Assembly: GCF_030291075.1 (NCBI RefSeq) | Contig: NZ_CP127407.1 | Coordinates: 3,036,001-3,100,000 of the forward strand | Length of the DNA stretch: 64,000 nt | Direction of reading: 5' to 3' | From: Stenotrophomonas sp. 57 | GTDB lineage: Bacteria; Pseudomonadota; Gammaproteobacteria; Xanthomonadales; Xanthomonadaceae | Shown here: positions 10,340 to 40,144 of the stretch, piece after piece | How positions within the stretch are numbered: position 1 is the stretch's first letter | How the letters are laid out: each line of letters opens with the position of its first letter | Made by a program: the position numbers and the translations under genes | Notes under the pieces: model-generated | Told to the model about the DNA's origin: nothing | Databases searched by the model: none | Seen by the model: only the letters and a program-made list of their open reading frames with translations

Positions 10340-10867
10340 TTACTCCAGCCCGTCCAGCAGCTCGTCGACCTTTTCCAGGGTCAGACGCTCATGGTAGTGA
10401 CCGTTGATGACCATCATCGGCGCGCCACCGCAGCCGGCCAGGCACTCTTCCTCGCGCTTGAGGTAGACGCGGCCGTCCGGGGTCGATTCACCGTGCTTGA
10501 TGCCCAGCTTCTTCTCGCAATGGCGCACGATGTCCTCCGCGCCATTGAGCCAGCAGCTGATGTTGGTGCAGATGGCCACGTTGTTGCGACCCACCTTCTC
10601 GGTCTCGAACATCGAGTAGAAGCTGGCCACCTCGTAGGCCCACACCGGCGGCAGGTCCAGGTACTTGGCCACGCCGGCGATCAGTTCGTCGGTCAGCCAG
10701 CCCTGGTTCTGCTCCTGGGCCGCATGCAGGCCCTGCAGCACGGCAGAGCGCTTGCGGTCCGGCGGGAACTTGGACAGCCAGTGATCGATGTGAGCGCGGG
10801 TCTTGTCGCTCAGCACCACCATCGGGTCGACGTCGCGCGCCGCCTCGAAATTACCTGTCGCCTTCAT
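10340..10867 (-). CDS. nuoE: NADH-quinone oxidoreductase subunit E, [2Fe-2S] protein
   Basis: A 175-residue thioredoxin-fold subunit carrying cluster N1a. The four ligands are visible as CTNISC (C-x4-C) and CLAGC (C-x3-C), separated by about 40 residues. It pairs with NuoF in the NADH-oxidising module. It is followed closely by nuoF (4 bases) but separated from the upstream nuoD by 97 bases, the largest gap inside the operon. Confidence 0.97.
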
Positions 10868-21286: not shown

Positions 21287-22327
21287 ATGAACGTCCTGGT
21301 GACCGGCGGTGCTGGCTATATCGGCTCGCATGCGTGCGTCGAACTTCAGCAGCAGGGGCACAGCGTGGTGATCGTCGATTCGCTGTGCAACAGCGATGTA
21401 GGCGTCATCGAGCGCATTGGCAGGATCACCGGTACGGCGCCGACCTTCGTGCAGCTCGACATCCGTGATCGGGCGCGCATGGCCGCCCTGATGCAGGCGC
21501 ACGCGATCGATGCCGTCCTGCATTTCGCGGCGCTCAAGTCCGTCGGTGAATCCCAGCAGATTCCACTGCAGTACTTCGACAGCAACATCAGCGGCTCGAT
21601 TGCCCTGCTCGGTGCCATGCAGGATGCAGGCGTGCCGTTGCTGGTGTTCAGCTCTTCGGCAACGGTATACGGCAACCAGGACCGCTGCCCGGTGGCCGAG
21701 ACTGCCTCGACCTGCGCGATGACGCCCTATGGGCGCACCAAGCTGGTGGTCGAGCAGCTGCTCGCCGACCTGGCGGCAACGGGCCAGGGCCTGCACATAG
21801 CGACGCTGCGCTACTTCAACCCTGTCGGCGCCCACGCCAGCGCGCTCATCGGCGAGCTGCCACATGGCACGCCAAGCAACCTGATGCCCTATATCGCGCA
21901 GGTCGCGGCCGGCCTGCTGCCGGAAGTGCAGGTCTTCGGGGATGACTATCCGACCCATGACGGCACCGGCGTGCGCGACTACATCCATGTGCAGGACGTC
22001 GCCAGCGCCCACGTGCTGGCCCTGCAGTTCCTTCGCGACCAGCGGCGCAGCATCACGCTCAACCTCGGCACCGGCCAGGGCCACAGCGTGCTGGAACTGA
22101 TCCAGGCCTTCGAGCGGACGACCGGTGTCCGTGTTCCGTTCCGCATCGTCCCGCGCCGCAGCGGCGACATCGCCGTGAGCTACGCCGATGCAACGCTGGC
22201 CCTGCGCGAGCTGGGCTGGAAGGCCCGCCACGATCTCACCGACATGTGCCGGGACACCTGGAAGTGGCAACGGGCGATGGCACAGGCCACGCAAGGTACA
22301 GTGCCAACGTACCTGCCCGCGCGCTGA
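21287..22327 (+). CDS. galE: UDP-glucose 4-epimerase
   Basis: A 346-residue short-chain dehydrogenase-type epimerase that interconverts UDP-glucose and UDP-galactose. The NAD-binding motif is VTGGAGYIGSHACVE at the amino end; the catalytic serine/threonine region is FSSSATVYGNQDRCPVAE and the Y-x3-K pair is in PYGRTKLVVEQ. The ATG at 21,287 gives the usual family start (MNVLVTGG); an in-frame GTG nine bases earlier, closer to an AAGGA, is an alternative. The last residues and the stop codon lie inside a palindrome, so the carboxy end may be repeat-derived. Confidence 0.94.
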   Translation: MNVLVTGGAGYIGSHACVELQQQGHSVVIVDSLCNSDVGVIERIGRITGTAPTFVQLDIRDRARMAALMQAHAIDAVLHFAALKSVGESQQIPLQYFDSNISGSIALLGAMQDAGVPLLVFSSSATVYGNQDRCPVAETASTCAMTPYGRTKLVVEQLLADLAATGQGLHIATLRYFNPVGAHASALIGELPHGTPSNLMPYIAQVAAGLLPEVQVFGDDYPTHDGTGVRDYIHVQDVASAHVLALQFLRDQRRSITLNLGTGQGHSVLELIQAFERTTGVRVPFRIVPRRSGDIAVSYADATLALRELGWKARHDLTDMCRDTWKWQRAMAQATQGTVPTYLPAR

Positions 22328-28335: not shown

Positions 28336-29223
28336 ATGAGCACATCCCTCCTGCCCCCGCTCAATGCACTGCGTGCGTTCGAAGCCGCCGCCCGCCTCGG
28401 CGGGGTCGGCCGCGCCGCGCAGGACCTGCATGTCACCCATGGTGCAGTCAGCCGGCAGCTGAAGCTGCTGGAGGATCACCTTGGCCTGGCGTTGTTCCAG
28501 CGCGCCGGCCGGGGCCTGCGCCTGACCGCCGCGGGCACCCGCCTGCAGGCAGCCTGCAGCGAGGCCTTCAGCGGCATCGAGGACTGCGTGCGCGAGTTGC
28601 GACGACCGGCGGCCTCCCCGGCGCTGGTGCTGGGGTGCAGTGGCAGCGTGCTGGCACGCTGGATGATTCCCCGGCTGCCCGCGCTGCAGACCGCGCTGCC
28701 CGGCGTCCGCCTGCAGTGGTCGGCGCTGGATGGCAGTTTCACCGAGGCGCAGACCGCACTGGATGCGGTGTTGCTGCTTGCGCAGGGGCCGTGGCCACGT
28801 GGCTGGCAGATACGTGAACTGGCCCCGGAGCGGGTTGGCGTGGTGGTTGCACCCTCGCACCCGGCCGCGCGGCGCCTGCGGCATGCACCGCCTGCAGCAC
28901 TGCTGCAGGAGACACTGCTGCATACCCACTCACGGCCGCAGGCGTGGCCGGCATGGGCACAGGCGCACGAGCTGAACGTGTCGAAGCTGCAGCTGGGCAC
29001 GGCCTTCGAGCATCTGTACTACCTGCTGGAAGCCGCGGTCGCCGGGCTGGGTCCGGCGATCGCGCCGGAGCCGCTGGTGGCCGAAGACCTGGCGGCAGGC
29101 CGCCTGGTCGCCCCCTGGGGCTTTGCCGCCACCGGCGGCTTCTGGGTACTGGCATGGCCGGATGGCCCGGCCAATCCGCGCGTGGAAGCACTGGCGGACT
29201 GGGCGAGCCAGCAACTGCGCTGA
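28336..29223 (+). CDS. LysR-family transcriptional regulator (TrpI-like by position)
   Basis: A 295-residue regulator. The winged helix-turn-helix is at residues about 8-67 (LNALRAFEAAARLGGVGRAA, then VTHGAVSRQLKLLEDHLG), followed by the substrate-binding domain. The VTHGAVSRQ and ALFQRAGRGLRLT motifs resemble the GcvA/TrpI subgroup. A ribosome site AGGAAA precedes the ATG. Its divergence from trpB supports a role in tryptophan synthase control, but other targets are possible, so I leave the symbol empty. Confidence 0.85.
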   Translation: MSTSLLPPLNALRAFEAAARLGGVGRAAQDLHVTHGAVSRQLKLLEDHLGLALFQRAGRGLRLTAAGTRLQAACSEAFSGIEDCVRELRRPAASPALVLGCSGSVLARWMIPRLPALQTALPGVRLQWSALDGSFTEAQTALDAVLLLAQGPWPRGWQIRELAPERVGVVVAPSHPAARRLRHAPPAALLQETLLHTHSRPQAWPAWAQAHELNVSKLQLGTAFEHLYYLLEAAVAGLGPAIAPEPLVAEDLAAGRLVAPWGFAATGGFWVLAWPDGPANPRVEALADWASQQLR

Positions 29224-29240: not shown

Positions 29241-29293
29241 GGGGATCAAGTCGTTTGTGCCACTTGCGCCTTGATCCCCTCCGCCCCTTTTTT
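29241..29293 (+). terminator. Terminator after the LysR gene
   Basis: GGGGATCAAG and CTTGATCCCC form a ten-base-pair stem with a 19-base loop. TCCGCCCC and a run of six T follow, and the run touches the stop codon of the convergent TelA-like gene. It begins 17 bases after the LysR stop. The stem could also help end transcription of the opposite operon. Confidence 0.75.
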
Positions 29294-30402
29294 CAGCTGG
29301 CGGTCGGGGCGGCCAGGCGCTGCTGCAGGTCGTCGCGCAGGCGCGACAGCTCGACTTCGGCCTGCTGACGCTGCTGCATGCCTTCGCGATGGATGCTGCG
29401 CACTTCCTCGACCGTGGCGATCAGCTGGTCGTGCACGTGGCGCAGGGTGGCCACGTCGATCACGCCGCGCTGGTTGCTGCGTGCGGTATCCACCGAGGCC
29501 TGACGCAGCAGGTCGGCGTTGCGGCGCATCAGTTCGTTGGTGGCATCGTCGATCGCGGTGGACAGCTCGACCACGGCCTTCTGCTCGCCCAGTGACAGCT
29601 GGATCGCGAACTGGCGCTTCCACGACGGAATGGTGATGTCGCGGACGGTGTTGAACTTCTCGATCAGCTGCAACGCATTGGCCTGGATCAGGCGGATCAT
29701 CGGCAGCGACTGGTCGGCGGCATGCTGCATCAGCTGCAGGTCGGACACGCGCTTCTCGATCAGCCGGATCGCGTTGTCGATCTCGCCCTGGCGGATGCGC
29801 TGCTGCGGGTCGTCGCTGCCCTGCCCCGCCACCTGCTCGGCCCGCAGTTCGGCCAGGCGCTGCTTGCCGGCGGCGGCATACAGGCCCAGCGCGTGACGTT
29901 CTTCGCGGACGATTTCGTGCATGCGGTCGAACTCGGCGACGCGCTTGCCCATCAACGCCTGTTGCACACCGACGTCGCCCATCAGCTGTTCGATCTGCGC
30001 ATTGGTGTCGCTGAACTTCTGCACCAGCTCGCCCTTGGACACCCGCAGGCGATCGATCAGGCCGCCGATCACCGGCACCTTCGAACGCTGGGCAAAACCC
30101 TCCAGTTTCAGGCTGCGGGCGATGCGCACCACTTCACCCAGCTTGTCGCCACTGGCATCGAGGTCGCGGTTGCGCACCTGGTCCAGCAACTGGCTGGAGA
30201 ACGCTGCAGTACGCGTGGCCGCCTCGCGGCCGAAGACCTGCAGGTTGCCCGGGCGAAGATCGTCCAGCTCGAGGCGGATCTCGGCAATGCGCGGCAGATC
30301 CTCGCGGACCAGGCCCAGTGCCTGCAATGCGCCCTCGTCGAGCGGAGCGGCGGTGGTCGTGCCGGGCACGAGGGCACCGGGGGTCTGGCTGTCCTGGGTC
30401 AT
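29293..30402 (-). CDS. TelA/KlaA-family toxic-anion resistance-like protein
   Basis: A 369-residue, almost wholly alpha-helical cytoplasmic protein with the TelA pattern: an early RIAEIRLELDDLRPGNLQVF-like segment, GLIDRLRVSKGELVQKFSDT, and near the end IPSWKRQFAIQLSLGEQKA and DLLRQASVDTARSNQRGVID, stretches I recognise from TelA homologues. The family is linked to tellurite and colicin resistance on plasmids and to membrane stress in general; its biochemistry is unknown. The start at 30,402 (MTQDSQTPG) follows AAGGAG by eight bases. It is the last gene of the flotillin/ATPase cassette. Confidence 0.88.
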   Translation of the reverse strand: MTQDSQTPGALVPGTTTAAPLDEGALQALGLVREDLPRIAEIRLELDDLRPGNLQVFGREAATRTAAFSSQLLDQVRNRDLDASGDKLGEVVRIARSLKLEGFAQRSKVPVIGGLIDRLRVSKGELVQKFSDTNAQIEQLMGDVGVQQALMGKRVAEFDRMHEIVREERHALGLYAAAGKQRLAELRAEQVAGQGSDDPQQRIRQGEIDNAIRLIEKRVSDLQLMQHAADQSLPMIRLIQANALQLIEKFNTVRDITIPSWKRQFAIQLSLGEQKAVVELSTAIDDATNELMRRNADLLRQASVDTARSNQRGVIDVATLRHVHDQLIATVEEVRSIHREGMQQRQQAEVELSRLRDDLQQRLAAPTAS

Positions 30403-30446
30403 CGGGCAGTCTCCTTGCGGTTGGGTAAGCGGCAGCGGCGGCCGGC

Positions 30447-31154
30447 TCACGGCAGTCTAGCCTGAGCCGCCGCAACCTCGTCTTCGATCCGGGCATGCAG
30501 CGTGGCGGCCTTTCCCGCCAATGCAGCGCCTGCAGCGGTCTGCTCCGCCAGTGCGGCCTGTCGCCAGGCCGGCAGCAGGACATCATGGATGCGCGCGAAG
30601 CGTTGCAGCAGCACCGTGTCCTGCTCCTGCAGCAGCTGCCACTGGGCGGCCTCGACGCGATGCAGCGCGGCCAGCCGACGCAGGTGGTCCAGCCGTTGCG
30701 ACAGCGCGGCCGCGCCGGCCGCGTCGCACTGCGCCAGCCGTGAAGCGCCCCGTTCGGCCCAGGCGTCCAATGCCGTGGCCGCCTCTGCATGCTCGGCGAT
30801 GGCCAGGGCCCGCGCCTGCTGGTGCTGTTGCAGGTGCTGGGCCTGTTCGCGCGCCTGCAGCGCCAGCACGCCCAGCTGCGACTGCAGCGCACGCCCTTCC
30901 GCCTCGCGGTCGACATCGCGTCCAAGCAGGCGCCCCCACCAGCCTTCCTGTCGGCGGATCTGCGCAGGATTCGCGACCTGCAGCGCCAGCGCGATGCGCG
31001 CCAGCGCCGCCACCAGGCCTTCGCCTGCAACCGGCGGCAAGGGTGCGGCGCGCTGGGCAAGTGCCTGCAGCAGCGGCGCACCGTACTCGGCCAGCACAAC
31101 GACATCAGCGGCATCCGGCAGCATCGGCGATGGCAGTGGCGTCCGCGCGGTCAC
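30447..31154 (-). CDS. Helical protein of unknown function in the TelA cassette
   Basis: A 235-residue protein I cannot assign to a family. It has an amino-terminal region with EYGAPLLQALAQRAAPLPPV, a short tryptophan-rich patch (EGWWGRLLGRD) near residue 72, and then a long Ala/Gln/Leu-rich part predicted as coiled coil. No signal peptide or membrane segment is visible. Its start overlaps the stop of the giant ATPase gene by four bases, and the TelA-like gene follows after 44 bases, so it is probably a dedicated partner of one of them. Confidence 0.75.
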   Translation of the reverse strand: MTARTPLPSPMLPDAADVVVLAEYGAPLLQALAQRAAPLPPVAGEGLVAALARIALALQVANPAQIRRQEGWWGRLLGRDVDREAEGRALQSQLGVLALQAREQAQHLQQHQQARALAIAEHAEAATALDAWAERGASRLAQCDAAGAAALSQRLDHLRRLAALHRVEAAQWQLLQEQDTVLLQRFARIHDVLLPAWRQAALAEQTAAGAALAGKAATLHARIEDEVAAAQARLP

Positions 31155-34100
31155 GGCAGCGGGGGCGGCTGCGGTGCCGTCGCTACGGTGCCTTCCGTGT
31201 CTTCCGGCGGCAGCGACTCGCCGTAGAAGTGACGCATCAGCGCTTCATCCAGTGCACGTTCTTCCGGCGTCGTGGCGCGTCGCACGCGCGCACGCTGCGG
31301 CACCGCACTGGGGCCACCGCGCTCGACCTGCTGTCGCGCCCAACCGGCGAACGCCGCCAGGGTCTGCGACACCTGTGCCTGCTGCGCCTGTGATGCCACC
31401 AGCAGTTCAACCAGAGGCGCCAACCCGGCCTGCAGGTCTTCGGCCAGCGGCGTGGCCGGCGCGCTGTGGGCGACCGCGGCCGGTACCGGCGAAGCGGGCA
31501 CGGAGCGTGTTTCGGACAAGCGCTGCAGGGCCTCCAGCAATGCCGGCCACGGCGCGGGCTCGGCGACGGCAGCAGGGGCCACTTCGGGCGCCGGCGGCGG
31601 CAGCTGCAACGCGCTGGCGATGTCTGCCAACTGTGCGACCACGCGTCCACCGACATCGCTGTCGTCGGCCCCCATGGCCTTGTTGCGCAGGAAATCGCGC
31701 TTGATCTGTGCCCAGCGCCGCGACTGCACCTCATCCAGCACGCCGCGCAGTTCGGCCAGCTTCAGCAGGTTTTCCTCAGCGCCGGTGGTGAGCAGCTGCG
31801 CCTCGCCCAGGTAGTGGTCGGAGATCAGCTGCTGCAGCTCGTCCTCGTTCATCACCGGCGAGATCTTCTCGGCCAGCTTGTTCATGTTGCGGTAGCTGCC
31901 CTGCAGCCGGAACGGCGGCTCGGTGCGGTAGCGGTCGTCCTGTGCGGCACTGGCGATGTACTGCTGGTTGACCCGGTAGACCACGTCGCGAACGCGCAGC
32001 ATGCGCTGCAGCGTAGCGGTGATTTCGTTGATTTCGGCGCTGCTGTAGGCATGGCTGAGGCCGTTGGTGGACACGTCCTTGCCCATTGCACGATCGACCA
32101 GCACATACAGGTCGGCCATGTCCCGCGTGGCCAGCGGCGCCAGTACCGGGTTGGAGGTCAGGCTGTTTTCGATGTAGCTGAGGGTGAACGCCGCTTCCAT
32201 GCCCCCCAGCACGTCGCCGAGATTGTAGATGTCGGCACGGTTGGCCAGCATGTCCGGAATCTTGAACACCTCGCCGGACTCGGTGTACGGGTTGCCGGCC
32301 ATGACCACGCAGAACTTCTTGCCACGCATGTCATAGGTGCGGGTGCGGCCACGCCACACGCCTTCGATGCGTCGGGTGCCGTCGCACAGCGAAATGAACT
32401 TCTGCAGGAACTCGGGATGGGTGTGCTGGATGTCATCGACATACAGCATGGTGTTGTTGCCCATCTCCAGCGCCAGGTTGAGCTTTTCAAGCTCCTGGCG
32501 CGAGGTCGCGTCCGGTGCCTGTTCCGGGTCCAGCGAACGCACCTCGTGACCCAGCGCCGGGCCGTTGATCTTCATGAAGACCAGGCCCAGCCGGTGGGCC
32601 ACGTATTCCATCAGCGTGGTCTTGCCGTAGCCCGGCGGCGAAATCATCATCAGCAGGCCCATAAGGTCGCTGCGCTTGTTCTCGCCCACCGTGCCCATCT
32701 GCTTGGCCAGGTTGTCACCGATCACGCCCAGATAGACATCGTTGATCAGCTTGTTGCGCACGAACGAAGACAACGGCCGTGCCTTGAATTCGGACAGGCG
32801 CAGTGTCTGCCGCTCACGGGCGATGATGCTCTGGCGCACCGCTTGATATGCGTGGAAATCCGGTACGAAGCGCTTCAGGTGGTGCTGCAGGCGTGACAGG
32901 AAATCGTCCAGCGACAACGATAGCGTACCGTTGTGGATGCGCGGATGTTCTCCCAGCAGGCCGTTCACCTCCACGCGCAGCGGTGCGTCGCTGCCCCGCG
33001 TGCGCAGCTGGCGCTGCACCAGCAGCAGCGCGGCCGCCTCGTCGGCATACCCGGCATGCACGGCCTGTGCCGGCAGCCCGGCCAGCGCGCGCAGCCATTG
33101 ACCAGCCAGCGCCCAGCGCGCGGCCAGCGGATCCTGCGCCCGCTGCAGGGCGCGCTCCAGTGCTTCACGCTGCCCGACCTGGTCCAACTGCTGTGCCAGG
33201 GCCTCCAGCAGGGCCTGGGCATGCTTGCTGGTGCTGAACACCGGTTCGCCGTTGACCAGTTCTTCGCCCAGATAGGCCGCTGCCGCGTCGGCGGCTTCAT
33301 CGTCGAAAGGCAGCGACTGCGCCTGCGCGAACGCGCTCAGTGCCACCGCCATTTCCGCGCGCAGGGCGACACGTCCTTCGTCGGAGCCGAACAGGCGGTC
33401 GATGGTTTCCGCACCGGCCTGCCGGCTGGGCCACTGCAGCACCGCTTCTTCGCGCTGCTGGGCCGCCCAGAACAGCAGGGCCAGCGCGCGCACCCGCGGC
33501 GCATGGCGCAACGTGCCCGCGGACTGCTGCAAGGGCAGCAGCGCGCGCAGGATCAACGCGGCGTCGTGATCGTGGATGCCACGCTCGTAGCCTTCGCGGT
33601 AGCGCGGTGCGGCGAACGCACGAACGCGCCGGTCCAGTGCTTCAGGCGTGGCGACATCGTGCTGCAGCTGCGCCAGGTCCAGCCCATCGTGGCCCTGCTG
33701 CGCGGCCAGCAGCAGGCTGCCGGCCAGGTATTCGCCGCGATAGATCGCCTCGGATTCCGAATCCAGCGTCACCGGCCAGAACGGCTTGAGTGCCTCCAGC
33801 TCCGGGTCGTGCAGGGTTTCCAGGAAGTCGGTGCCGGTCAGGTGGATGGCCAGCGTGTCGCCGCGCGGCAAGAGGGTCAGGTCCAGGGCCTGGGTGTTGA
33901 CGCTGAAGCGGTGGCGCGGCCCCAGCCGGACCACGTTGCCACCGGCTTCGTACAGGTCGCTGCGGTCGCGCAGCTGGCGCACGGCCTGGTCGCGCACGGC
34001 CTTCAGGCGCGCCTCGATGTCATCGGCCTTGACGTTGTCGCGCAGCGCGCGCAGGCGCTCGGCCAGTTCGCGCAGCTTGAGGATCAGCGGGTCACCGGCG

Positions 34101-36544
34101 AAGAACGCATTGAGTTCATCGGCGGTGGCGAAACGCTCGGTGCGCTTGGCCAGGCCATCAAGGATGCGGTTGGCCGCGTCCAGTACCGAGCGCGCTTTGC
34201 GCTGGCGGTCGTCCAGCAACGCCTGCTTGTGCGTCTCGAAGGCCTCGACCAGTTCCTCGCGCTTGCTGAGGATGTCGCCGAGGAACTGCTCGTGCTCGCC
34301 GAACTGGCTTTCCAGTTCTTCCAGCTGCACCAGCAGGCGCGACAGCTGTTCGTCGGCCTTTTCCGGATCATGGGCCATCGCCAGCGCGCTGGTGATCGAC
34401 TGCGAGAACAACGCGAACTGGGCGGCGAACTGGGCCACCGCCTCGGCCGAACCGAGGGTGCGGCGGCGCTGTTCGGCGCGGGTACGCGCCTGGTTCAGGC
34501 GCCCGTACAGCGCGGAAATGGATTCAACCACGCGGGTACGCGCGGTGGCATCGTCCACCTTCAGCCCGGCCATCAGTTCGGACAGCATGTCCAGGTCGGC
34601 GGCCATGCCACGCATGCCGTCCAGCTGCTCGTCCAGCTGGCGCGCACTGCCGGCCTGCTGCGCAGCCTCGTCCAGCGCCTGCAGGCGGCTGCCCAGCGGC
34701 GCCAGCGCGGCATCACCAGCGAGGAATTCGCCGGTGGCGCCACCAACGCGGTCCTGCGCCTGTACCAGCTCGGCGGCCATCGCTTCGATGCGCGCGGTGT
34801 CGATGTAGCGCAGCTCACGGATGGTCAGCAGGCGCCCGCGTAGCGCGGTGATCTCGTTCAGTGCCTCGACGAAGGCCTGCACCTCGTTCCAGTTCTGGGG
34901 CTGCAGCCGGCCCAGCAGAGCCTTGAAGCTGGCCTCCGCCTCGACCATTGCCTGCGCCGACTGCTCGCGGATGGATTGGACCTTCTCGTATTCGTCCAAC
35001 ACCGATTCGCCGGTGGCGCTGATCTGCCGCAGCAGTGCTTCGGCGCCGTCGCAGGCCTCGTCGCCCAGCCAGTGGTGGGCATCGAACAGGCGGCGGGTAT
35101 CGGCCACCAGCCGCTGGTAGCGCTGCACCGAGACATCCTGGCCGTCGATCTCGCGGGCCAGGTTGAACAGGTTGGAGATGCCGCGCACCAGCTCGGCATT
35201 GCCGATGCGGCCCATGAAGGTGTTGCCGGGCGGACGGCTGGCGGCGAACTCGTCGCTGCTGAACGGCGTCTGCCAGACCTGCATCGGGTGGATGCGCGTG
35301 GGCTCGGTGCCCTCGGCATGGAACAGCACCATGCGCCCATCCTGCATGAACGCATAGCCGTGGCCGAACACCGGGTTCTGCAGCACGCGCTGGATGGTGT
35401 TGTAGACGAACAGCGCCGAGCGCCCGCCCTCGCGCTCGTAGAAGATGTACAGCACGTCCTCGCCATTGGGCGAACGGATGCTGCGCTTGAACTGCATGCC
35501 GGCCATCGAGGCGTCGAACGCCTTGTGCTCGCCGCCCTGCAGGTAGTAGCCGCCCGGGAAGATCACGCCGTGGTCTTCGGGCAGCTGCACGCAGGCCTGC
35601 ACGATCGCATCGTTGCGCACGATGTCGCCGGTGAGCGTGTTGTAGATAAGCCCGCGCCAGACGGTTTCGCGATAGGGCAGCACCTTCAGCAGCAGCAGCG
35701 AGCCGACGCGGGCGAACTCGAACTGGGCGTCGTCCAGCGACTGGGTGCTGTCTTCCACCGGTTCGCTGTAGATGCCCTGTCCGGTCTCGGTGTTGTTCTC
35801 GACCTTGATGGTCAGGTCGCCACCGGTGGTTTCCACGAACAGGGTGTCGAGGATGTTCAGGTGCGAATGGCGGCCGTTGACCGCGAGGTCGCGGGTGGCC
35901 CTGGTCCATTCGAAATCGAACGGTGGCGGCAGTGCGATATCGCGTTCGCCGCGCGCGTCGAGGTAGGTCAACTCGCCTTCGCGCGACAGCGCCCAGCGGA
36001 ACACGCGCACGTCGCTGCTGCGCTCGCCGATCTGGAACGAGGCCAGCAGCTTGTCGCCCACCACGATCAACTGCAGCAGGCGTGCATGCTTGTAGTAGGC
36101 GTACAGCTCGTTGAAGTCGTGCACGAAACCGGGCTGGTCCAGGAAACTGCCCTTCAGCTCCAGCGCAGCGACGTCGTAGCCGTCGGCCCCCTGCACCAGC
36201 CGGTACAGGCCGAACACATCCTCGATGCGGGTCTGGGTCTTGAGCCCGATGAACACGTTGTAGCCGAACAGCAGGCGGTCCGGGCCCACCTGCACGATGT
36301 CGCGGCCGACGCAGTTGTTCTCGCTGCGGATGCGGAAGCGGCCGATCACCTCCAGGCGGCTGTCACCGAATTCGGACAGACGCTGGCGGTTGAGGGTCTC
36401 GGCCAGGGCCTGCAGGCGCTGGCCCTGCTCGCCGAGGCGGCGGCGCAGGACTTCGTAGGCACCGCCCTGGGCGACGGCCTGGTCGACGGTGCTGCCGCCG
36501 GCCTCCGGCACAGTGGATTCGGCGGTCGATTGGGTTTCAGACAT
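31151..36544 (-). CDS. Giant AAA+ ATPase of the DUF3686 'DNA repair ATPase' type
   Basis: A 1797-residue protein. Residues about 30-470 look beta-rich, with repeated strand patterns (for example EVIGRFRIRSENNCVGRDIV and PDRLLFGYNVFIGLKT), about 480-900 are mainly coiled coil, and the carboxy third holds an AAA+ module. Its Walker A motif is SPPGYGKTTLMEY near residue 1301, Walker B is NTMLYVDDIQHTHPEF near 1368, and CVVMAGNPYTESGEVFKIPD looks like the sensor-1 region. The common label DNA repair ATPase rests on weak similarity, so the function is not established. It lies 85 bases after the flotillin gene and overlaps the next gene by four bases. A membrane-associated remodelling role is equally plausible. 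Confidence 0.82.
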   Translation of the reverse strand: MSETQSTAESTVPEAGGSTVDQAVAQGGAYEVLRRRLGEQGQRLQALAETLNRQRLSEFGDSRLEVIGRFRIRSENNCVGRDIVQVGPDRLLFGYNVFIGLKTQTRIEDVFGLYRLVQGADGYDVAALELKGSFLDQPGFVHDFNELYAYYKHARLLQLIVVGDKLLASFQIGERSSDVRVFRWALSREGELTYLDARGERDIALPPPFDFEWTRATRDLAVNGRHSHLNILDTLFVETTGGDLTIKVENNTETGQGIYSEPVEDSTQSLDDAQFEFARVGSLLLLKVLPYRETVWRGLIYNTLTGDIVRNDAIVQACVQLPEDHGVIFPGGYYLQGGEHKAFDASMAGMQFKRSIRSPNGEDVLYIFYEREGGRSALFVYNTIQRVLQNPVFGHGYAFMQDGRMVLFHAEGTEPTRIHPMQVWQTPFSSDEFAASRPPGNTFMGRIGNAELVRGISNLFNLAREIDGQDVSVQRYQRLVADTRRLFDAHHWLGDEACDGAEALLRQISATGESVLDEYEKVQSIREQSAQAMVEAEASFKALLGRLQPQNWNEVQAFVEALNEITALRGRLLTIRELRYIDTARIEAMAAELVQAQDRVGGATGEFLAGDAALAPLGSRLQALDEAAQQAGSARQLDEQLDGMRGMAADLDMLSELMAGLKVDDATARTRVVESISALYGRLNQARTRAEQRRRTLGSAEAVAQFAAQFALFSQSITSALAMAHDPEKADEQLSRLLVQLEELESQFGEHEQFLGDILSKREELVEAFETHKQALLDDRQRKARSVLDAANRILDGLAKRTERFATADELNAFFAGDPLILKLRELAERLRALRDNVKADDIEARLKAVRDQAVRQLRDRSDLYEAGGNVVRLGPRHRFSVNTQALDLTLLPRGDTLAIHLTGTDFLETLHDPELEALKPFWPVTLDSESEAIYRGEYLAGSLLLAAQQGHDGLDLAQLQHDVATPEALDRRVRAFAAPRYREGYERGIHDHDAALILRALLPLQQSAGTLRHAPRVRALALLFWAAQQREEAVLQWPSRQAGAETIDRLFGSDEGRVALRAEMAVALSAFAQAQSLPFDDEAADAAAAYLGEELVNGEPVFSTSKHAQALLEALAQQLDQVGQREALERALQRAQDPLAARWALAGQWLRALAGLPAQAVHAGYADEAAALLLVQRQLRTRGSDAPLRVEVNGLLGEHPRIHNGTLSLSLDDFLSRLQHHLKRFVPDFHAYQAVRQSIIARERQTLRLSEFKARPLSSFVRNKLINDVYLGVIGDNLAKQMGTVGENKRSDLMGLLMMISPPGYGKTTLMEYVAHRLGLVFMKINGPALGHEVRSLDPEQAPDATSRQELEKLNLALEMGNNTMLYVDDIQHTHPEFLQKFISLCDGTRRIEGVWRGRTRTYDMRGKKFCVVMAGNPYTESGEVFKIPDMLANRADIYNLGDVLGGMEAAFTLSYIENSLTSNPVLAPLATRDMADLYVLVDRAMGKDVSTNGLSHAYSSAEINEITATLQRMLRVRDVVYRVNQQYIASAAQDDRYRTEPPFRLQGSYRNMNKLAEKISPVMNEDELQQLISDHYLGEAQLLTTGAEENLLKLAELRGVLDEVQSRRWAQIKRDFLRNKAMGADDSDVGGRVVAQLADIASALQLPPPAPEVAPAAVAEPAPWPALLEALQRLSETRSVPASPVPAAVAHSAPATPLAEDLQAGLAPLVELLVASQAQQAQVSQTLAAFAGWARQQVERGGPSAVPQRARVRRATTPEERALDEALMRHFYGESLPPEDTEGTVATAPQPPPLP

Positions 36545-36597
36545 CAGCAGGCTTCCGGGTCACGGGCGGCCGGCCGTCGATGCGGCCGGCGCAGGCC

Positions 36598-36622
36598 GGC
36601 GGTGGCCGTCATGGCCACCGCC
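36598..36622 (-). repeat. Hairpin between the flotillin and giant ATPase genes
   Basis: GGCGGTGGCC, a five-base loop and GGCCACCGCC give a ten-base-pair stem in the 85-base spacer. No T-run follows on the minus strand, and a further GGCCGG-rich stem lies next to it. It may set different expression levels for the two genes. Confidence 0.65.
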
Positions 36623-36629
36623 AGGTGCA

Positions 36630-38648
36630 TCAACGGGCGCTGTCGAGCACGGCAGCCGACACGGTCGGCACGGCGTCGGCTTCGTCGGCAATCTGCCGCG
36701 GTGCCGGTTCGGCCACGGCCACGCCCAGGTAGCGCTGCATCAGCTCCTGCACGATCGGGCTCTTGCCGGCGAAGCCTTCGATCGACTTGCCCAGTGACAC
36801 CGCCTTGACCAGGTTCTCGAACATGCCGCCGTCGCCGCCGACCAGGTCGATGTCGGCATTGCGCAGCGCGCTGGCGATGACGTTGGCGTTCTCGCGCGAC
36901 ACTTCCTTGCCGGCTTCGATCGAGGCCAGCGCCTGCTTCAGGCTGTTGTCCAGCATCATGCGGAACTCTTCATGGCCGCGTGCCTGGTCGCTCAGCGAAG
37001 CGATGGCCTCGAACTTGCGCACCAGGCCTTCGGCCTCGGCCAGCAGCTTCTTCTGCACCACGCCCGCCTCGGCATTGCCCAGCGACTCGGTGGCGGTGGC
37101 ACGGGCCAGGCCCATCTTCTCTTCGCCCTGGGCCTGGGCCTGCAGCGTCTCGGCCAGCACACGGGCCTCGTTGCTGCCCTGCTTCAGGCTGGCTTCGGCC
37201 TTGGCCTCGATCACGCGGGCTTCGGCGATGCCGACCTTCTCGATGGCCAGCGCGGAGGCTTCACGCACCTGCGCTTCGGCCAGGCCCGGCGCGGCCTGTT
37301 CGGCACGCAGCGCATCGGCCAGCAGGCGCTTGGCCTCGGCCTGCTTGCCGGCCGCTTCGTGCTCGGCCTGGGCCAGGGTGGTCAGTTCAACGGCACGGTG
37401 CTTGGACGCGGTTTCGCGTGCCTGCGCTTCCTTCACCTCGCGCACCAGCGCTTCCTGTGCCTTGGCTTCGGCTTCCAGGATCAGCACCTGCTTCTGGCGG
37501 TCGGCTTCGGAAACCTCGCGCACTTCCTTGATGCGCTCCTCTTCCTGGGCCACGGTCTTGTCGATGGAGATGCGTTCGCGGGTGATGTTGGCCACGTCCA
37601 TCTTGCCCTGCTCGACCACCTTGTCGCGCTCCACACCCTGCAGCTGCACTTCGCGGTCGGTGGTGACCTGCTCCAGCTGGCGTGCGCGCTCCACGCGCTC
37701 GGCCTCGATGGCCACGGCACGCTGGCGGTTCTGCTCGGCCACTTCCACTTCGCGCAGGCGGTTCTGGTCACGGATCTCGATCAGCTGCTGTGCTTCGATG
37801 CGTGCATTCTCGGACAGCTGGCGCTGCTCTTCCTGCACCTTGGCGGTCTCGGCCTCCTCGCGCGCGCGGATGGTCTCGATCTCGCGCTTCTGGCGTGCCT
37901 CGGCCTCGGCCTGCTGGCGTTCCAGCGCCAGCAGCGCCTCACGCGCCTCCACGTTCTTCTTGGTGATGGCGAGCTTCTCGTTCTGCTCCAGCTCGTTGGT
38001 CACCACGTTCTGCGCGGCGGTCAGTTCGGTGATCTTGCGGATGCCCTGCGCGTCGAGGATGTTGAACTGGTCCAGCAGCGACTTCGGCGTCTGTTCCAGG
38101 TAATCGATCGCCACGTCTTCCAGCACATACCCGTTCAGGTCATTGCCGATGACCGCGATGATCTCGTCGCGGAACTCCTGGCGCTTCTCGAACAGTTCGG
38201 TGAAGTCGAACTTCTTGCCGACGGTCTTCAGTGCCTCGGAGAACTTGGCGTTGAACAGCTCGTCGACGGCATGCTTGTCCGACGCGCGGTCCGCACCGAT
38301 GGCCTTGGCCACGCGCAGCACATCGGCCTGGGTTTCATTGACCCGCAGGTAGAAGGCCACGGCGATGTCGGCACGCATGTTGTCGCGGCAGATCAGGCCC
38401 TCCTTGCCGCGGCGGTCGATCTGCAGGGTGATCAGGCTGATCCGCATCAACTCGGCGCGGTACAGCACCGGGATGATCAGGGCACCGGTGAAATGCACCT
38501 TGGGCGTGGAGCTCATGTCGTTGACGATCAGGGCCACGCCCTGGTCGACCTTGCGGTAGAAGGCCTTGAACAGCCCGGCCAGGCCGAGCAGCGCCACCAG
38601 CAGAACGGCCACGCCGATCAGGAAGGGTGCCATGGTTGCCAACGTCAT
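36630..38648 (-). CDS. Flotillin-family (SPFH/band 7) membrane protein, YqiK-like
   Basis: A 672-residue protein with one amino-terminal membrane segment (PFLIGVAVLLVALLGLAGLF), an SPFH domain at about 30-210 (KVDQGVALIVNDMSSTPKVH through KSLLDQFNILDAQGIRKI) and a very long Glu/Ala-rich coiled coil at about 230-560 (IETIRAREEAETAKVQEEQR and similar). A conserved carboxy-terminal region follows. Size and shape match E. coli YqiK and eukaryotic flotillins, which organise membrane microdomains. Its ATG overlaps the stop of the YqiJ-like gene by one base, as in the yqiJ-yqiK pair. Confidence 0.93.
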   Translation of the reverse strand: MTLATMAPFLIGVAVLLVALLGLAGLFKAFYRKVDQGVALIVNDMSSTPKVHFTGALIIPVLYRAELMRISLITLQIDRRGKEGLICRDNMRADIAVAFYLRVNETQADVLRVAKAIGADRASDKHAVDELFNAKFSEALKTVGKKFDFTELFEKRQEFRDEIIAVIGNDLNGYVLEDVAIDYLEQTPKSLLDQFNILDAQGIRKITELTAAQNVVTNELEQNEKLAITKKNVEAREALLALERQQAEAEARQKREIETIRAREEAETAKVQEEQRQLSENARIEAQQLIEIRDQNRLREVEVAEQNRQRAVAIEAERVERARQLEQVTTDREVQLQGVERDKVVEQGKMDVANITRERISIDKTVAQEEERIKEVREVSEADRQKQVLILEAEAKAQEALVREVKEAQARETASKHRAVELTTLAQAEHEAAGKQAEAKRLLADALRAEQAAPGLAEAQVREASALAIEKVGIAEARVIEAKAEASLKQGSNEARVLAETLQAQAQGEEKMGLARATATESLGNAEAGVVQKKLLAEAEGLVRKFEAIASLSDQARGHEEFRMMLDNSLKQALASIEAGKEVSRENANVIASALRNADIDLVGGDGGMFENLVKAVSLGKSIEGFAGKSPIVQELMQRYLGVAVAEPAPRQIADEADAVPTVSAAVLDSAR

Positions 38649-39319
38649 CAGTGATTCTCCTTGTTGCCCGGAAGCAGGTTGTCCTGGAAATCGAGGGCGA
38701 CCGCGTCGGCGCGGACTACCCGGTAATGGTGTTGGTCGGCCACGTGCTCGACCAGCACGATGCGCTCGCCTCGCTGCAGTTCGATGTCGCTGCGCACCTG
38801 CAGCACCAGCCCGGCACCACCGTCATCGAACGTGGCGTGGCCGCTGCGGGCATCCACTTTCGGCGAGGCGACCACACCGATGCGCCCCAGCAACGAGGCC
38901 TGGGCCACCGGCCGCAGGCGCAGCAGGAACCGCCGGATGGGGTGCAGCAGCAGCGCGGTGACCGGTACGGCAGGCAGCGGAGCCAGCACGGCCACGACCG
39001 CGCCGGCCGTCCAGCGCAACAGGTCCGGCAACGGCAACAGCACGAAAAGATGGATGAAATAGGTCAGCGCCCAGCCGAAGAAGCCCAACAGCGTGACCAC
39101 GACCATGACTGGCACTCCCCCCAGGCCGAAGCGCTGCAGCAGGGCCGACAGGCCGCTGAGATCGTTGCCGCCGTCCAGGGCGCCATCGGCGCCAAGATCG
39201 CCGAAGCCATCGTCGACCAGGCCGAATGCGGCGAGCCCCCAATAGATCAGCGATACCGCCAGCACGATGCTGTACGGCAGGGTCGGGAAACCGAACACAA
39301 CGCTGAAGAATTCCTGCAT
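38648..39319 (-). CDS. YqiJ-like OB-fold inner-membrane protein (flotillin partner)
   Basis: A 223-residue protein with three or four membrane helices (TLPYSIVLAVSLIYWGLAAF, VPVMVVVTLLGFFGWALTYF, LLRWTAGAVVAVLAPLPAVP) followed by a soluble beta domain (LGRIGVVASPKVDARSGHAT, VLQVRSDIELQRGERIVLV) that resembles the OB fold of NfeD/YqiJ proteins. NfeD-like proteins accompany bacterial flotillins. I chose the ATG at 39,319 (MQEFFSVVFGFP) because AGGAAGG precedes it by six bases; a frame extension upstream lacks such support. It is the first gene of the cassette. Confidence 0.85.
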   Translation of the reverse strand: MQEFFSVVFGFPTLPYSIVLAVSLIYWGLAAFGLVDDGFGDLGADGALDGGNDLSGLSALLQRFGLGGVPVMVVVTLLGFFGWALTYFIHLFVLLPLPDLLRWTAGAVVAVLAPLPAVPVTALLLHPIRRFLLRLRPVAQASLLGRIGVVASPKVDARSGHATFDDGGAGLVLQVRSDIELQRGERIVLVEHVADQHHYRVVRADAVALDFQDNLLPGNKENH

Positions 39320-39487
39320 CGCTTGCCTTCCTGGGCTGTGGGCGGCGATCGCCCGTTCGGAACGCGCAGAGCGCGTCCCGGTGATCCCCGCGCCAGCCTT
39401 CATGGCAGGCGCGCTTGGTTCCATCCTATGTGAAGAATACGTGCAGGCTCAAATCCAGATGCAGATTGCGATAAACGGTGACGCCGA

Positions 39488-40144
39488 TCACTCCAGAACC
39501 GTGCAGTCCGCGCGGCGCACTTCCTCGACGAAGGTGCGCATCTTGTAGCCATCCTTGATGCCCGGTTCCAGCTCGATGCCGCTTGAGACATCCACGCCCC
39601 ACGGCAGGGTGGCCAGCACCGCGTCGTAGACGTTGTCCGGGTTCAGGCCACCGGCCAGCAGGAACGGGCGATGCAGGCCGGTCGGGATCCGGCCCCAGTC
39701 GAAGGCCACGCCGGTGCCGCCACCGCCGCCGGGCGCATGGCTGTCGAACAGGAAGCCAGCGGCGCTGGGATAGCGCAGCTGCAGGGTGCGGGCGTTGATC
39801 TCCTCACGCCCGCCCATGGCGATCGCTTTCAGGTACGGCATGTTGAAGCTGCGGCAGAAGCTCTCGTCTTCCTCGCCGTGGAACTGCAACAGGGTCGGCC
39901 GTACCGTGCGCAGTACCTCGCGCACCTCTTCCCTGCTGTTGTTGCGGAACAGCGCCACCACGTCGACCATCGGCGCGATCGCCTGGCGCATCGCACGCGC
40001 CTCGGCCGGAGCCACACGGCGGCTGCTCTCCCGGGCAAAAATGAAACCCACCGCGTCCACGCCCAGCTCGCCGGCCAGGCGGACGTCGCCGGCACGGGTC
40101 ATTCCACAGAACTTGATGCGCGTACGGTAGTAGGAGCGGCTCAT
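39488..40144 (-). CDS. trpF: Phosphoribosylanthranilate isomerase
   Basis: A 218-residue TIM-barrel enzyme of tryptophan synthesis. The catalytic cysteine is in [16 protein letters not shown] near the amino end, the catalytic aspartate region is [21 protein letters not shown] and the phosphate site is [15 protein letters not shown] with [12 protein letters not shown]. The ATG at 40,144 overlaps the truA stop by four bases. It would normally lie near trpB; here about 10 kb of other genes separate them. Confidence 0.96.

Follow-up and report, generated by a model that had tools for sequence, protein, structure and literature searches.

The window analyzed here, a stretch of 64,000 nucleotides from Stenotrophomonas sp. 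57, carries five minus-strand genes that are arranged head to tail and read in the order nfeD/yqiJ-like, flotillin, DUF3686/AAA+, CC, and telA, where CC denotes a 235-residue helical protein. In the reading that we put forward, and that we hold to be about evenly poised between right and wrong, this set is the form that an envelope-stress operon of the bac/Psp type has assumed in one lineage, in which the TelA pair, i.e., TelA together with CC, took over at least part of the place of PspA. Sequence comparison supports the conserved gene order, the origin of all TelA-bearing operons placed in a tree from one fork, in which PspA is diverged or absent, the scaffold genes, the ATPase, and an exchange of partners. 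The original prediction had suggested an undescribed system. This does not apply to the core, which belongs to an operon class known from the work of Ravi et al. (2024) and from the bac operon of Pseudomonas aeruginosa, and what stands of the suggestion is the lineage-specific addition of CC and TelA. The TelA pair is the new part: its presence in the operon, the TelA-like nature of the partner protein and the decay of PspA were not found in the literature searched.

Conserved core and the TelA-bearing fork

Loci with a DUF3686 gene were compared in two sets. The wider set (L009 to L095) consists of 80 named loci, which are the best 80 of 555 relatives and therefore lean to near relatives, plus seven loci from a phylum sample. 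The family sample comprises 198 genomes, 44 of them with DUF3686; 39 loci, including that of the window, were analyzed, while the genomes G212, G290, G322, G337, and G372, which were set aside for contig ends or fragments, yielded no TelA match (0/5). Because at least five contigs occur in both sets (L019/L098, L022/L129, L030/L126, L036/L130, and L063/L118), the sets cannot be treated as independent, and duplicates occur among the 126 loci taken together. Upstream counts refer to loci in which 5.5 kb or more precede the DUF3686 gene, and names of neighboring families were taken from Pfam matches of one or two representatives each. NfeD and flotillin are encoded upstream of DUF3686 in 77/77 wider loci (84 and 80 of 87 before loci short of upstream sequence were set aside) and in 38/38 family loci. 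YjfI (PF09938, DUF2170) and PspA (PF04012) both lie ahead of the NfeD-flotillin pair in 46/77 wider and 31/38 family loci, and a PLD-type protein (PF13091) is encoded downstream in 24/75 and 26/39 cases, respectively, whereas a rhomboid-type protein (PF01694) is found there in 17/75 wider loci and in none of the 39 family loci. The order NfeD-flotillin-AAA recurs in many genera of the Pseudomonadota, in Myxococcus and in a metagenome-assembled genome of the Planctomycetota. It is therefore not due to chance. NfeD, flotillin and AAA form an old and already known core.

The TelA pair is distributed in a different manner. TelA exceeds the cut-off in 18/198 family genomes, all of which also have DUF3686, and lies about 6 kb from it in 14 of the 18. 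In the other four (G286, G296 = L136, G334 = L135, and G369 = L134), a lower-scoring and more distant TelA is located elsewhere than in the operon. The open reading frame of the L135 copy begins four bases before the end of one of 411 residues. Among loci with enough downstream sequence, CC-TelA is present in 14/39 family and 11/75 wider loci, so that the constant co-occurrence of all five genes expected by the original prediction is not found. CC itself accompanies every linked TelA (11/11 wider, 14/14 family), and the full order YjfI-PspA-NfeD-flotillin-AAA-CC-TelA-PLD is realized in half of the TelA-bearing family operons (7/14). Ten of the 11 wider TelA loci belong to genera of the Lysobacteraceae, and the remaining one, L020 from a Pseudomonadota metagenome-assembled genome, falls within the same fork. 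A tree was calculated for AAA plus flotillin by a quick IQ-TREE search with 48 rows, for which a long-branch warning concerned two distant rows only. It included L018, L020, L021, L073, L074, and L019 (as its duplicate L098) of the wider TelA loci; L016, L017, L064, L068, and L077, all from Stenotrophomonas, stayed outside, and L121 was left out for its split AAA frame. The 19 rows that bear TelA all fall into one fork (SH-aLRT 100), so that this is a single evolutionary event. By sequence comparison, the CC-TelA pair is a lineage-specific addition to the core. Within this fork, a sub-fork of six rows (the window, L096, L018, L021, L073, and L105) has no YjfI, PspA, or PLD matches; these rows stem from Stenotrophomonas and Xanthomonas, with the exception of L105, which carries another genus code.

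The fate of PspA sets the TelA-bearing operons apart. When copies on the same strand as AAA were scored with the PspA profile, values of 59–151 were obtained for 11 of the 14 TelA-bearing family loci and PspA was not found in three (the window, L096, and L105), as compared to 229–338 in 20 and no PspA in four of the 24 TelA-less family loci that extend far enough upstream (L113, with a score of 286, stands outside this count). The Pfam PspA family gave the same picture for those linked copies for which positions were compared (with TelA, E 1e-5 to 3e-21, versus E 1e-37 to 1e-54 without). In the wider set, 22/67 TelA-less loci have no same-strand PspA match, two of which have one on the opposite strand; TelA-less L059 reaches a PspA score of 38 with a short reading frame, and TelA-bearing L020 is counted as devoid of PspA for no other reason than the early end of its contig. 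Profiles for YjfI, PspA, and PLD found no match in window positions 22001–46000, and a PspA family search at E ≤ 0.001, which did not extend to DUF2170 at the genome level, gave no match in the genome of the window (G000) or in eight other members of the genus in the sample. As the YjfI-PspA dyad was not found, the window represents an abbreviated form of the operon plus CC-TelA and not a full member of the class. Where PspA persists, it changes fast: relative to AAA, its median ratio of change amounts to 2.88 in the TelA clade versus 1.65 in TelA-less loci (12 and 18 loci, respectively). The same direction is seen for YjfI (1.75 versus 1.16) and flotillin (0.89 versus 0.53), and the opposite for NfeD (1.70 versus 2.31). 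Conservation of flotillin drops most in the last 30 aligned residues (mean identity 0.68 in the TelA clade versus 0.91), and one may speculate that this C-terminal stretch is a former PspA contact.

Encoded proteins and known relatives

The giant protein matches DUF3686 (PF12458, E 6e-193), DUF7902 (E 5e-24), and AAA_5 (E 4e-7) in Pfam and contains a single AAA+ domain. The motifs of its nucleotide site, which we take to be Walker A, Walker B, sensor 1, and an arginine-finger-like motif, are kept in 125, 121, 126, and 126 of the 126 loci (duplicates included), respectively, and the protein is therefore most likely an active ATPase. Its closest named counterparts are an uncultured Stenotrophomonas sp. 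protein (L064, 95% identity) and those from S. maltophilia strains (L017 and L068, 91%). A class-level relative, L012, has its giant gene interrupted by one TGA at about 10668–10741. In Lampropedia L035 and L037, 2.0 and 3.4 kb separate flotillin from the giant gene, so that one or more extra genes may be inserted there. The flotillin, for which a Pfam search gave no match at E ≤ 1, aligns from residue 8 with E. coli YqiK (BLASTP E 2e-37, 28% over 477 columns) and is by this alignment a distant YqiK relative of the SPFH type. The assignment of the first protein to NfeD/YqiJ is weak by sequence alone, since its 15.1 bits for YqiJ_N fall short of the Pfam cut-off (23 bits) and it is only weakly similar to E. 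coli YqiJ (E 8e-4), and draws in addition on its place, its length and three hydrophobic segments.

TelA covers positions 8–331 of the 332 of the PF05816 profile (E 2.8e-71, 240.8 bits versus a cut-off of 30). The CC protein of the window has no Pfam match, PF05816 included. Among 18 members of the CC family, two match PF05816 at E ≤ 0.1, and the homologue P0104 reaches 26.5 bits, which is below the cut-off of 30; the XpaC family does not appear among Pfam matches of CC members at E ≤ 0.1. A profile-profile comparison (hhalign) aligned CC with the core of TelA over 63 columns (probability 88.8%, E 2.5e-6). Lysobacter xinjiangensis encodes a second CC outside the usual place, before YjfI (L019:4551-5378, identical with L098:1428-2255), and the TelA profile built here matches this same core in it with 19 bits. 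P0078 from Stenotrophomonas sp. CD2 (357 residues) combines a PF05816 domain with a CC-like part (81% over 60% for the CC match); CC and TelA have possibly been joined in it by a fusion or a deletion. From these profile comparisons, CC is judged to be a shortened TelA-like protein. It evolves faster than TelA (mean identity within the clade 0.315 versus 0.674). Structure prediction yielded an all-helical CC with a long helical hairpin (mean pLDDT 90.3) and a long helical hairpin for TelA as well (mean pLDDT 70.3); in comparisons with the PspA/ESCRT-III fold, matches of both models stay within the background for helical bundles. The labels "cell division protein FtsY" and "fused signal recognition particle receptor", which public databases attach to CC homologues such as P0020, P0036, P0059, and P0069, are unsupported by our data.

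The operon class described by Ravi et al. (2024; PMC11237479) comprises flotillin, an AAA+ protein with coiled coil and beta-propeller, YqiJ/YuaF and, in some cases, CesT/Tir-PspA and PLD, and these authors also recorded a short form without PspA. Their operons resemble the loci studied here in that PLD is present in some Proteobacteria; the terms "TelA" and "tellur" are absent from the main text of that article. The six genes of the P. aeruginosa operon bacABCDEF reside on one transcript, as evident from reverse-transcription PCR, and in a mutant lacking a functional bacA, the levels of BacB to BacF are higher by a factor of 6.1 to 13.5 (PMC10948618). A mutant in pa3731 (bacB) is biofilm-defective, and osmotic shock increases the amount of the encoded protein (PMC2587700). 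When only the bac flotillin (paFlo3) was deleted, neither pyocyanin nor swimming changed significantly (PMC13086221). The first four bac genes, for a DUF2170 protein, PspA, a short NfeD, and flotillin, match the Pseudomonas loci of our sets, and the gene order in P. composti (L024) suggests that bacE and bacF are the giant AAA+ gene and the one next to it. With this class the window shares NfeD, flotillin, and DUF3686 AAA+ in this order, but bacA and bacB (YjfI and PspA) are missing from it, as is the rhomboid/PLD tail, and CC-TelA is present in their stead.

E. coli YqiJ-YqiK shows the same two-gene arrangement as NfeD-flotillin, although neither an AAA+ protein nor TelA is annotated within 12 kb around it. 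In the YdjG/H/I-PspA system of Bacillus subtilis, an SPFH protein is needed for bringing PspA to the membrane; the other membrane partners differ, and the abstract names no giant AAA+ protein or TelA (PMC8581546). Upon overproduction of membrane proteins in Lactococcus lactis, an XpaC-like gene is induced 10.3-fold and telA1 3.44-fold (PMC3139573). In such XpaC-TelA pairs of Firmicutes (llmg_1115/1116 in L. lactis), telA adjoins a partner gene, as it does in the CC-TelA pair, and both are induced together, whereas the passage on this pair, unlike the window, names no flotillin or AAA+ protein.

Gene layout and chromosomal site

All five open reading frames of the original prediction were found in their places (Table 1), and its start for nfeD at 39319 is backed by the alignment of homologous upstream sequences, which makes the longer form listed (38648-39424) less likely. 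The short overlaps that it had noted between starts and stops also exist: nfeD and flotillin overlap by one base and AAA and CC by four, while an overlap of four bases between CC and telA occurs only with the GTG start at 30450. Homologues suggest the in-frame ATG at 30402 as the start of telA, and with this ATG the two genes are separated by 44 bases. A gap of 85 bases lies between flotillin and AAA. A consensus scan detected no promoter-like site inside the five-gene stretch, and its three terminator-like sites are fewer than in shuffled sequences (mean 5.7). The five genes are likely an operon. Upstream of nfeD, a block that hardly varies among five Stenotrophomonas loci, in contrast to its flanks, may be a promoter or operator, a suggestion made by eye, as the consensus promoter scan did not pick it up. 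Simple consensus scoring for a sigma-54 site upstream of the first gene gave shuffle p ≤ 0.05 in 3/117 loci and p 0.315 in the window.

Table 1. Positions of the five genes and of bordering features in the window.
Feature	Position	Strand	Remarks
nfeD/yqiJ-like membrane protein gene	38648..39319	-	223 residues; homologue-aligned start; weak YqiJ likeness; three hydrophobic segments
Flotillin/SPFH protein gene	36630..38648	-	672 residues; one N-terminal hydrophobic segment; E. coli YqiK match
Giant AAA+ protein gene	31151..36544	-	1797 residues; DUF3686 44-491, DUF7902 613-695, AAA+ about 1298-1425
CC, gene for helical, apparently TelA-like partner	30447..31154	-	235 residues; fast-evolving; core common to TelA
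telA family gene	29293..30402	-	369 residues (385 if GTG 30450 is used); PF05816
trpF (PRAI), upstream border of insertion site	39488..40144	-	listed reading frame extends to 40270
LysR-type regulator gene, downstream border	28336..29223	+	convergent with the five-gene set
Block upstream of nfeD, promoter-like by eye	39423..39452	-	TTGAGC, 18 bases, TAGGAT; alignment of Stenotrophomonas loci

The ATG of trpF at 40144 overlaps the end of the preceding gene. DUF3686 occurs in 36/61 genomes of the genus sample, and the site between trpF and lysR was read in the 25 genomes without it. In 22 of these, match coordinates place trpF and lysR next to each other (within about 220 bases in 16 and with 0.6–3 kb between them in six), so that in the genus this site appears to contain either the whole operon or none of it; of the remaining three, one has no match for either gene, one has them on different contigs and one far apart. 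In G410 and G411, the match to the trpF next to lysR is split in two, and a further copy is located elsewhere in G410. Three of the six genomes with larger spacing (L137–L139, all Stenotrophomonas) have the gap filled by a reading frame of 618 residues, which in L139, the one scanned, contains NlpC/P60 and peptidoglycan-binding domains. In L138 and L139, it adjoins a frame of 234 or 253 residues with a lipoprotein-like start, and the two look like a pair of the effector-immunity type. As Xanthomonas has members of this fork too, it seems that the operon has long been present in the lineage and was then lost in places.

Proposed mechanism, alternatives and significance

In the mechanism that we propose, NfeD and flotillin would build a membrane-anchored scaffold that concentrates a membrane-binding helical protein at the stressed membrane. 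The giant AAA+ protein would dock on this scaffold and use ATP to load, remodel, or disassemble the helical protein. In the usual form of the operon, the latter would be PspA, with YjfI/BacA regulating it in the manner of a chaperone. TelA and CC would have joined the operon in the Lysobacteraceae fork, and as PspA drifted and was then gone in the Stenotrophomonas and Xanthomonas rows, TelA and CC may do all or part of its job in the window. Membrane binding by TelA and CC, the relation between ATPase and client, and the stress signal are the parts that we infer. The original prediction had already combined a flotillin scaffold and a giant ATPase with membrane stress, which fits the conserved order and the published operon class; it missed PspA, the usual partner, and the evidence now points to TelA and CC as a substitute for PspA rather than as adaptors.

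It is possible, although we would not lean that way, that the core works as in the bac operon, that TelA and CC add a separate protection (e.g., against toxic anions or cell-wall-active compounds) and that the loss of PspA is an unrelated relaxation. TelA is named for tellurite resistance, and we know of no mechanism for the resistance linked to it. Of the 14 family operons with TelA and CC, seven also have a diverged PspA and PLD and four more a diverged PspA without PLD, and operons devoid of both TelA and PspA exist as well. However, PspA is diverged or absent in all 14 TelA-bearing family operons, an intermediate PspA score occurs in no TelA-less family operon (L059 of the wider set has one), and the CC gene overlaps the AAA gene in the window. 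That the operon is a module directed against phages or competitors and kept at a variable site of the chromosome appears improbable to us. Its patchy occurrence in the genus, with trpF and lysR as neighbors in most genomes that do not have it, and the other cargo at the site in three genomes would suit such a module, whereas no PADLOC model matches NfeD, flotillin, CC, or TelA at E ≤ 0.1, the giant protein is hit only by LmuB, in a coiled-coil-like stretch (E 4e-4), and weakly by mad8, and relatives are encoded in 0/112 viral candidate stretches.

The Pfam title of PF12458 and a weak RuvB-like AAA+ similarity could be taken to indicate that the giant ATPase is a DNA-repair machine with an incidental flotillin linkage. 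This is very unlikely, as the NfeD-flotillin pair is linked in every assessable locus, the RuvB similarity spans only about 45 residues around Walker A and an AAA+ protein of the operon class was read as having coiled coil and beta-propeller by Ravi et al. (PMC11237479). That five unrelated neighbors came together by chance has hardly any credibility left: the confinement of TelA and CC to one lineage would agree with it, but the order is conserved over many genera, genes overlap, and the five-gene stretch shows no internal promoter-like site and fewer terminator-like ones than shuffled sequences.

A bolder version of the replacement of PspA, which we regard as tentative and on balance rather doubtful, is that TelA and CC form a second, PspA-independent membrane-coating helical polymer run by the flotillin-anchored AAA+ protein, i.e., a non-orthologous PspA replacement. 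If this were true, the wider TelA family, XpaC-TelA pairs included, would consist of membrane-remodeling or membrane-sealing proteins, and "tellurite/colicin resistance" would be a by-product of a membrane role. Scaffold and ATPase are common to a natural series of operons that runs from PspA only via PspA plus TelA to TelA only, and this series allows a direct test of whether TelA stands in for PspA. The giant ATPase thereby gains a candidate client and the function of TelA a testable hint.

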